From: an uncultured Acidobacteriota bacterium
GTDB taxonomy: Bacteria > Acidobacteriota > Thermoanaerobaculia > Gp7-AA8
Reading direction: 5' to 3'
Assembly (NCBI GenBank): GCA_937870635.1
Contig: CALMZP010000105.1
Coordinates: 1-35,510 of the forward strand
DNA: 35,510 nt
In this document: positions 8,152 through 31,875 of the stretch, piece by piece
Numbering within the stretch: the stretch's first letter is position 1
How the letters are laid out: every line of letters begins with the position of its first letter
Translations under genes and position numbers: made by a program
The notes under the pieces: generated by a model
Told to the model about the DNA's origin: nothing
The model's database searches: none
Seen by the model: only the letters and a program-made list of their open reading frames with translations

Positions 8152-8190
8152 GTCAGCCTGAGAGGCTGCGAACAGACCTCTCAGGCTGAC
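8152..8190. terminator. Perfect 14-bp hairpin between receptor and oxidoreductase genes
   Basis: GTCAGCCTGAGAGG (8152-8165) and CCTCTCAGGCTGAC (8177-8190) pair perfectly around an 11-base loop. There is no long T run, but the position 8 bases after the receptor stop suggests a terminator. The arm resembles the GTCACCCTGAGAGGCTG module of the repeat at 12735-12942, so this may be a minimal member of that palindrome family. Confidence 0.65.
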
Positions 8191-10620: not shown

Positions 10621-10666
10621 AAAACTCAGAAATACTTGGTGGAGGGAAGGATAGCACCGGCGGCAT

Positions 10667-10883
10667 GGACCCTGGACCCTGGACCCTGGACCTTGAACTT
10701 TCGATCTGCCGGCCGGTTGCTGATGCGCCCATGGCTTGATTCGACCTTCGACCTTCTGCCTTCGATGGCTCGCATGCGGCGGGCGAGATCGCCCGCGGCT
10801 CCACTCCTGCGTAGCCCAAGGTCCAAGGTCGAAGGTCGAAGGTCGAATCGAGCCGAAGCCCCAAGGTCCAGGGTCCAGGGTCC
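10667..10883. repeat. Doubly nested palindrome with GGACCCT and CGACCTT heptamer arms (element 3)
   Basis: Outer left arm: GGACCCT x3, GGACCTT and a diverged unit (10667-10701). Inner left arm: CGACCTT x2 and CTGCCTT (10742-10762). The centre is the small palindrome CGGGCGA-GA-TCGCCCG (10780-10795, within a slightly longer stem). Inner right arm: AAGGTCC and AAGGTCG x3 (10818-10845). Outer right arm: AAGGTCC and AGGGTCC x2 (10863-10883). All units are seven bases. The element ends 8 bases from the LigD stop codon and fills the space to the receptor promoter region. Confidence 0.9.
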
Positions 10884-10890
10884 AAACGTC

Positions 10891-12696: not shown

Positions 12697-12734
12697 CAGT
12701 CCGATTCATGCACGTGTTCTGCCGCCCGCATCGA

Positions 12735-12942
12735 ATTTTGGATTTTGGATTTTGGATTTTGGATTGCAGCCTGGTGTCAAACACGTCACCCTGAGAGGCT
12801 GTGAGTCGCGAAGACGGCGAAGGGCCTCAAACGGCGTGGATCGCATTTTGAGGTCCTTCGGCGTCCTTCGCCTCAGAGGCTGTGAAACACCAGCCGAACC
12901 CGAAAATCCCAAATCCAAAATCCAAAATCCAAAATCCAAAAT
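12735..12942. repeat. Nested palindrome with ATTTTGG heptamer arms (element 4)
   Basis: The left arm has four ATTTTGG units (12735-12762). The right arm has CCCAAAT and four CCAAAAT units (12908-12942). Inside are paired segments GCAGCCTGGTGT / ACACCAGCC and GTCACCCTGAGAGGCTGTGAG...GCGAAGACGGCGAAGG with its partner CCTTCGGCGTCCTTCGCCTCAGAGG. The inner module is related to the cores at 444-525 and 16678-16759, although the outer heptamer is different. It lies in the 393-base gap between the divergent LigD and TonB genes. The remaining gap sequence (12943-13089) shows no further gene or clear promoter. Confidence 0.9.
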
Positions 12943-15857: not shown

Positions 15858-16589
15858 ATGAATGAGATCCTCCTCTACGCGGTCGCGGGCTTCATCGCTC
15901 AGCTGATCGACGGCGTTCTCGGTATGGGCTACGGGGTCAGCGCGACCTCTTTTCTCCTGTCGCTCGGCGTTCCCCCCGCGGTCTCGAGCGCGAGCGTGCA
16001 CACCGCGGAGACCGTCGCCACCGGCTTCTCCGCGTATTCGCATTACCGTTACGGCAACGTCATCTGGTCGCTCGCGAAGCGACTCCTGATCCCCGGAGCG
16101 ATCGGCGCGGTGATCGGAGCGTACATCCTCACGCAGATTCCCGGCGAGACGATCCGCCCGTTCATCGCGGTGTACCTGCTGCTGATGGGAGCCCTGATTC
16201 TGCTGAAAGCTTTTCACCGCCGTCCGGCCGCCGAGTCGCATGCGCACCTCGGGCCGCTGGGTCTTGCGGGAGGATTCTTCGACGCGATCGGCGGCGGTGG
16301 ATGGGGACCGATCGTCGTCGGGACACTCCTCGCCCGCGGCAATGAACCGCGAACCACGATCGGCTCGGTGAACTTCGCCGAGTTCTTCGTGACGCTGGCC
16401 GCGTCGCTCACCTTCTTCATGACGATTGGCCTCGCCGCCTGGAAGCCGATCGCCGGTCTCGCCCTCGGCGGCGCGCTCGCCGCACCAATCGCGGCAAAGC
16501 TCGTAGGCCGCATCCCCGCCCGCCCGCTCATGATCGCCGTGGGGGTATTCGTCATCGTACTGAGTTTGCGGACGATCCTGGCCAGTTAA
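15858..16589 (+). CDS. TauE/SafE-family sulfite/organic anion exporter-like protein
   Basis: 243 residues with about seven or eight membrane helices. The family repeat motif is visible at the start (AQLIDGVLGMGYGVSATSFLL) and again in the second half (GGFFDAIGGGGWGPIVVGTLL). TauE/SafE proteins export sulfite, sulfoacetate or similar anions across the inner membrane; nothing here fixes the substrate. It is the third gene of the pepQ-DUF2721-tauE unit. The last codons are unusual: the stop TAA lies inside the first GTTAACC unit of the repeat at 16585, so the repeat defines the C-terminus (LAS). Confidence 0.9.
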   Translation: MNEILLYAVAGFIAQLIDGVLGMGYGVSATSFLLSLGVPPAVSSASVHTAETVATGFSAYSHYRYGNVIWSLAKRLLIPGAIGAVIGAYILTQIPGETIRPFIAVYLLLMGALILLKAFHRRPAAESHAHLGPLGLAGGFFDAIGGGGWGPIVVGTLLARGNEPRTTIGSVNFAEFFVTLAASLTFFMTIGLAAWKPIAGLALGGALAAPIAAKLVGRIPARPLMIAVGVFVIVLSLRTILAS

Positions 16590-16834
16590 CCGTTCACCGT
16601 TCACCGTTCACCGTTAACCGTTAACCGTTAACCGTTAACCGTTAACCGTTAACCGCGAAGAGCGTAATCGACCCCACGTCATCCTGAGGCGCGAAGACGC
16701 CGAAGGATCTCAGGTTACGCATCTTGAGACCCTTCGCCGTCTTCGCGGCTCAGGGTGACGTGCTTGCGCTCTGCGGCCCGCGGCACGGGTAACGGCTAAC
16801 GGTTAACGGTTAACGGCAGCCGGTTAACGGCAGC
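16585..16834. repeat. Nested palindrome with GTTAACC heptamer arms (element 5)
   Basis: Ten tandem units on the left (16585-16654; GTTAACC with three GTTCACC). The core palindrome has arms at 16678-16714 and 16723-16759. Six right-hand units (16787-16828; GGGTAAC, GGCTAAC, GGTTAAC x2, GGCAGCC, GGTTAAC) and a partial GGCAGC follow. The core is almost identical to that of 377-587, so these are two copies of one element. It spans exactly from the TauE/SafE stop to the base before the SprT-like stop, two convergent genes, and could terminate both. Confidence 0.92.
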
Positions 16835-21214: not shown

Positions 21215-21232
21215 CGTCTGGACATGCACGTT

Positions 21233-21334
21233 GGACCCTGGACCCTGGACCTTGGACCTTGGGAGAGACGAGGCGGACAGACGCGGAGCGCTCACGCGTC
21301 ACTCCCACCGGCCAGGGTCCAGGATCCAAGGTCC
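21233..21334. repeat. Heptamer-armed palindrome (GGACCCT type, element 6)
   Basis: GGACCCT x2 and GGACCTT x2 (21233-21260) are matched by AGGGTCC, AGGATCC and AAGGTCC (21314-21334). The inner region lacks the GTCAYCC core but has short inverted pieces. It begins 18 bases after the permease stop and ends next to the -10 element of the following gene. The heptamer is the same as in 10667-10883. Confidence 0.85.
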
Positions 21335-21336
21335 CA

Positions 21337-31724: not shown

Positions 31725-31875
31725 GGAGTGCGGCAGCTTGCTGCCGGTCTCGAAAAGCGTGTCATCCCGAGCGTGAGCGAGGGACCTGGGGGATGGGCGG
31801 CACGAGGCATGAGGTTCGCGCCACCCGGCCCCCCAGGTCCCTCGCTCACGCTCGGGATGACAGCATGCCACTCCA
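31725..31875. repeat. Nested palindrome with perfect 32-bp arms between convergent genes (element 7)
   Basis: The arms 31761-31792 and 31830-31861 are perfect reverse complements (starting GTCATCCCGAGCGTGAGCG), with a 37-base loop. Outside them TGGAGTG (31725-31731) pairs with CACTCCA (31869-31875), and a GGCAGCTTGCTGCC palindrome (about 31733-31746) sits in the left flank. No heptamer arms are present, but the GTCATCC...GGGATGAC framing is like the cores of elements 1 and 5. It lies between the cardiolipin-synthase-like and gnd genes and is probably a bidirectional terminator. Confidence 0.88.

Follow-up and report, generated by a model that had tools for sequence, protein, structure and literature searches.

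Two kinds of short repeat, arrays of 7-nt units paired as long hairpins and small REP hairpins joined head to head, probably multiply separately in the genome of an uncultured Acidobacteriota bacterium and come together at shared gene junctions, with elements gained, lost and replaced over time. The analysis started from a 35,510-nt stretch of this genome (the window) and was extended to other parts of the genome and to relatives.

Results

Repeat elements in the window

The following elements were located in the window (coordinates, strand, description):

375–421, plus: left heptamer arm (GTTAACC)n of element 1
443–526, halves 443–478 plus and 491–526 minus: core of element 1, a head-to-head dimer of a CGTC-type REP
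529–556, plus: GTGGAG...GCGGGCGA/TCGCCCGC REP, RAYT-associated type, within the arms of element 1
557–587, plus: right arm (GGTTAAC/GGTGAAC)n of element 1
8152–8190: apparently degenerate hairpin with CGTC-REP-like ends only (CACGTCAGCCTGAG on the minus strand)
10664–10692, plus: outer left arm (GGACCCT)n of a nested element
10740–10763, plus: inner left arm (TTCGACC)n of the nested element
10779–10804, minus: GTGGAG REP, innermost loop of the nested element
10814–10847, plus: inner right arm (GGTCGAA)n of the nested element
10853–10884, plus: outer right arm (AGGGTCC)n of the nested element
12731–12765, plus: left arm (ATTTTGG)n
12784–12876, no strand assigned: diverged dimer of a CGTC-type REP, with insertions resembling IS ends at CTGAG/CTCAG
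12901–12942, plus: right arm (CCAAAAT)n
16583–16655, plus: left arm (GTTAACC/GTTCACC)n of element 2, overlapping the stop codon of a TauE gene (15858–16589)
16677–16760, halves 16677–16712 plus and 16725–16760 minus: core of element 2, CGTC-type REP dimer
16786–16830, plus: right arm (GGTTAAC)n of element 2
21225–21262, plus: (TTGGACC)n arm, with a weaker opposed arm at about 21310–21335
31760–31862, no strand assigned: unarmed homodimer of a second REP type, with 33-bp perfect arms

No Rfam family and no tRNA was found in the window. An initial annotation had pointed to near-identical cores at two sites, and the copies at 443–526 and 16677–16760 are indeed 97.6% identical; they belong to a 172-nt repeat at 92%, and both are enclosed by (GTTAACC)n and (GGTTAAC)n arrays. 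The diverged core that it had placed within the ATTTTGG element (12731–12942) was recovered by the core covariance model R1 at 12784–12876 (E = 1.6e-10). At each of its two CTGAG/CTCAG points this copy carries additional sequence of the AGGCTGTGA type, similar to the termini of an IS that has entered other core copies. Two further hairpins had been thought to share a GTCANCC...GGNTGAC frame with the cores. The one at 31760–31862 is a perfect palindrome as described but belongs to the second REP type (TGTCATCCCGAGCGTGAGCGAGGGACCT; six monomers in 435 kb), two copies of which form its 33-bp inverted repeat (31760–31792/31830–31862); by inspection it is CGTC-like and built as the core is (TCCC-GA-GC-GTGA-GC-GA-GGGA). 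The one at 8152–8190 has only the CACGTCA/CTGAG ends in common with the core, is unmatched by R1 and, judged from its sequence, looks like a degenerate copy.

The core is a dimer of a CGTC-tagged REP

The 82-bp core consists of two short CGTC-tagged hairpins of the REP kind, head to head. Each half-core (approximate consensus CGTCA-yCCT-GA-GnCG-CGAAGA-CGnC-GA-AGGr-yCTC) forms a hairpin of ~30 nt with an outer 5-bp stem, a tandem G.A step, an inner 4-bp stem and a CGAAGA loop. A sequence search found dozens of core copies in the 4.52-Mb source genome, and a covariance-model scan, which the initial annotation had proposed as a way to find further copies, yielded at least 150 monomers (half-cores; E ≤ 3.2e-11). 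Within the class, the REP model matched 48 of 120 genomes. Across the genome collection searched, an IUPAC core pattern matched gp7 AA8 and AA11 MAGs only; the family to which the window belongs is related to these gp7 soil MAGs.

The core has the features of the CGTC-tagged REPs described by Di Nocera et al. 2013 (PMC3733652): a CGTC tag at one end of a short stem-loop, occurrence mainly as head-to-head dimers with heterodimers common, and no flanking transposase gene. Of 39 unique monomers, 38 carry the tag, its first base being the informative one since the monomers were excised at [CT]GTCA. As head-to-head dimers with no dedicated transposase, the cores belong to this superfamily in the broad sense. 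However, membership in CGTC-1 to CGTC-4 was rejected. These four published families have a stem of 8–9 bp, a loop of 4–5 nt, mostly a CCA tail, and A/T first and second pairs (PMC3733652), whereas the core has a stem of 5 + 4 bp with the tandem G.A step, a 6-nt loop and a CTCA tail, and its first pair is A-T in 20 of the 39 monomers. On these differences in stem, loop, first pair and tail, the core REP is a separate family.

Compensatory changes support the half-core hairpin

The initial annotation had suggested that compensatory changes would reveal selection on folding. They were found in the small hairpin within each half-core and not in the long palindrome. Across 39 distinct half-cores, the 9-pair monomer structure has 40 double-change cells, compared with 13.8 in shuffles, and a covariation score of 0.312 (0.136 shuffled), which fell to 0.104 or lower in every control in which the structure was slid by 1–3 columns. 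Swaps between T-A/C-G, C-G/G-C and C-G/T-A occur at four pairs of the hairpin, and the tandem G.A step is retained in 38 of the 39 unique monomers. The two halves of a dimer match at 22.96 of 28 positions, against 23.97 for random pairs (0.14% of shuffles were as low), a result weighted by copies of one ancestral heterodimer. Since dimer halves are less similar than random pairs, conservation does not extend to the core's long fold-back, which was ruled out as a conserved structure. The half-core hairpin is probably what selection or mobilisation sees. Copies of the core are thus not few, nor do they lack compensatory changes, the two outcomes that had been named as telling against the original reading.

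Heptamer arrays form inverted pairs

The arms are a repeat class separate from the core REP. In a 435-kb own-genome sample of MAG sequence, made up of stretches of four large contigs and the window, 104 of 121 tandem arrays have a period of 7; the proportion in relatives is 73 of 105, plus some 8- and 9-mers. With this excess of 7 nt over other unit lengths, the arrays are heptanucleotide simple sequence repeats. About 20 unit sequences occur in the own genome, including AAAATCC, AACCGTT, AAGGTCG, AAGGTCC, ACCCTGG, AACATTC, AAGGATG, AACGATG and AAGCACC. Neighbouring arrays are inverted in 70 cases and direct in 3 (p = 1.4e-17, all sampled genomes, among them genera with unrelated units). Polarity is fixed in most unit types (17/17 for ATTTTGG and 7/7 for AGTGCTG), and a few types show both polarities. 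The loops of ATTTTGG hairpins are short and mutually unrelated. No common outer flank sequence was found for ATTTTGG and GTTAACC, the two largest own-genome arm types; the GATGAAG elements of a relative, G008, share an outer GCGAGA.CGTTAGC flank (n = 5). In the element at 10664–10884, one arm pair lies within another.

The arrays most likely grow through slippage by 7 nt, and the second arm would be produced, or kept matching, through fold-back copying during replication. Variant bases are mirrored only weakly between arms (0.17–0.22 at the two nearest registers, 0.05–0.13 at others), which is less than constant arm-to-arm copying predicts and counts against fold-back copying. Slippage alone does not explain the occurrence of one heptamer at many unrelated loci or the fixed polarity, and these two features are not fully explained by REP movement, nor by slippage with fold-back copying. 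A process with a built-in 7-nt step could instead write the same arbitrary heptamer head to head at both sides of a junction, at many unrelated sites, with a heptamer set that differs by genus and with REPs nested inside; we regard this as quite unlikely.

We give slightly less credence still to the proposal that the head-to-head arrays are scars of DNA-end repair, whereby each 3' end at a break received the repeat before the two were joined, as in telomere–telomere fusions, with REPs as frequent break points. Such scars would account for the single polarity, u...rc(u), kept by most unit types, for the unrelated loop fillers, and for a constant unit length with free unit sequence, and the genome encodes Ku, with a LigD containing a polymerase domain in the window. 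Ku is, however, also encoded by the relatives G015 and G010, whose first samples contained no heptamer arrays; a heptamer-adding enzyme was not found, and the few unit types with both polarities do not fit. Ku/NHEJ was also rejected as a marker for heptamer arrays, as the two did not correlate across the genomes compared.

The densest region observed was a 20-kb stretch of another genome (L126, G009:C27:90001-110000) with 27 arrays, mainly AGTGCTG/AGTCCTG. G008 has inverted arrays of 8-nt (AGGCGCAT) and 9-nt (AGATAGGAC) units (L123:281-458 and L121:8157-8238, respectively).

Cores occur between matched arms of several kinds

One core type was found with six kinds of arms and also bare. Core dimers lie between matched arms in 8 of 15 cases; for points drawn at random the share is 4.4% in intergenic DNA and 0.65% overall. 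The sample for this count comprised the window and 20 stretches (L082–L101) selected regardless of cores; the window itself was selected by the finding, and leaving out its three dimers gives 5 of 12.

To the initial annotation, cores and arms had looked like interchangeable modules. This reading largely holds, as differing combinations do occur, but exchange between the two is not free. Arm labels on the core tree change 13 times, against 17.1 in shuffles, which suggests that arm type is partly co-inherited with the core and partly exchanged; the tree behind this suggestion is mostly unresolved (one starred branch) and so lends little support to free arm/core exchange. About two dozen GTTAACC-armed copies have the arm, part of the left arm–core spacer and the core in common, and the GTTAACC family thus appears to have spread partly as one unit.

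Junction elements differ between congeneric species

G008, from the same family as the window's genome, was compared with G015, a species of the same genus as G008, over 76 kb of aligned sequence (78.7% identity), a comparison of one species pair in one syntenic block. G015 has 3 heptamer hairpin pairs in 201 kb, and G008 has 17 in 180 kb. The aligned sequence contains 11 G008 hairpins, and at 9 of these sites G015 lacks a heptamer hairpin; among the 9 is a 125-bp insert where G015 has 0 bp between aligned blocks. Two junctions have a hairpin in both species but with differing heptamers: at the end of a tRNA-like gene, GAAGGCA in one species faces mixtures of GAATGCA, GAACGCA and GAATGAA in the other, and at the second junction TTGTGAA faces GAATGAA-like heptamers. 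A third junction has a heptamer hairpin in G015 and a REP-like inverted repeat in G008. A bare CGTC dimer of G008 is missing from G015, and the class-wide search with the REP model listed no match in G015. No target duplication was noticed by eye at the insertion sites. These differences are the most direct evidence that the hairpins are replaceable parts. As a separate observation, a gene stretch that is single in G008 (L122 8766–11027) is matched twice in tandem in G015 (C6, near 375000–380000).

The presence and absence of hairpins at orthologous sites would also be expected if each element were a single MITE-like transposon, with the heptamer arrays as terminal inverted repeats and the REP dimer as cargo. 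The jointly inherited parts of the GTTAACC copies, the clustering of arm types on the core tree and the outer flank of the G008 GATGAAG elements, as expected of a transposon end, agree with this. It is nevertheless doubtful, given that ATTTTGG elements have common arms but no common loop or outer flank, that at least six arm types surround one core type, that bare cores exist, and that no target duplications were noticed by eye.

That the hairpins are selected regulatory or terminator structures, for which heptamers are merely an easy route to long stems, we consider unlikely. Their location at gene junctions, often starting at the stop codon (16583–16589 in the window), and the arm complementarity retained across very different units are in line with such a role. 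On the other hand, 10 of 39 hairpins lie between divergent genes (by rough gene calls), the mirroring of variant bases is weak, and the 9 of 11 missing at the orthologous junction of the congener would be hard to reconcile with it.

Proposed mechanism and relation to known systems

For the two separately multiplying repeats that we favour, the core REP most likely moves as single-stranded DNA by means of an HUH (Y1) transposase. The CGTC core is absent from the borders of all three Y1 genes in the genome, and with no Y1 gene flanked by it the transposase most likely acts in trans. REP dimers settle into, or become enclosed by, heptamer hairpins far above chance. Composition, structure, copy number, pairing, enrichment and turnover were observed directly, whereas we infer both modes of multiplication and the order of events, be it that a REP entered a hairpin or that arms formed around a REP. 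Through gain, loss and replacement of junction elements between species of one genus, arms and cores would come to be recombined.

Each of the two components, heptamer hairpins and CGTC REPs, has been described on its own; a search of the open-access literature found no account of the two together. The GGGAATC heptameric simple sequence repeats of Xanthomonas (Rehm et al. 2015, PMC4692102) are likewise intergenic and in inverted pairs, with convergent pairs numbering 70 in one genome and 75 in another, but use one main unit per genome, in contrast to the approximately 20 unit types, nesting and looped REP dimers described here. According to these authors, heptameric repeats had received no detailed treatment in the literature. 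PMC4679880 credits Mrazek 2007 with noting that heptamers are over-represented in bacterial genomes and with proposing polymerase slippage as the reason. Intergenic heptamer arrays are also found at the heptamer sites of Geobacter metallireducens (PMC2700814). An intron with heptanucleotide repeats resembles the arms in hairpin pairing, two unit classes and inserted extra sequence elements, but is one locus, whereas the hairpins here form a genome-wide family. Paired inverted REPs also act as a unit in REPINs (PMC3116915) and BIMEs, which, unlike the armed cores, are RAYT-linked and have no heptamer arms. Some REP dimers of A. variabilis and H. neapolitanus lie within larger palindromes, for which heptamer arms were not reported (PMC3733652). 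With some 20 unit types in a single genome, strictly inverted pairs, an almost fixed polarity, nested REPs and empty sites in congeners, this repeat family makes the origin of heptamer hairpins directly testable.

Other REPs, RAYT and IS elements

The small GCGGGCGA palindromes that the initial annotation listed alongside the cores do recur, the GTGGAG...GCGGGCGAnnTCGCCCGC REP having 341 exact genomic copies (0 for a reversed-pattern control), but those at 529–556 and 10779–10804 are a REP different from the core. GCGGGCGA palindromes lie on both sides of a RAYT gene (L079 4821–5363, G000:C139), whose 180-aa product passes the NCBIfam model NF047646 for REP-associated tyrosine transposases (104 bits, cut-off 80). 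In this they resemble the GTAG-type REPs of REPtrons, which flank a RAYT gene, but the tag is GTGG instead of GTAG, and this REPtron-like REP is not the core of the finding. Many of the 341 copies are in close pairs.

An IS with a 417-aa transposase-like ORF (L084:5030-6525, G000:C31), presumably IS1182-like, has inserted into a CGTC-type REP and is bordered by CTGAG at either end, and the cores in L051 and L062 are interrupted at the same CTGAG point by an end related to this IS. The Y1 transposase genes in L080 and L081, which are longer (320 and 372 aa), are flanked by long inverted repeats (GAGGGTCACGTCTGCACTTCGCACTTTC; TCATGGTGTCAGGTCTGGA), in the manner of the TIRYT genes of Di Nocera 2013.
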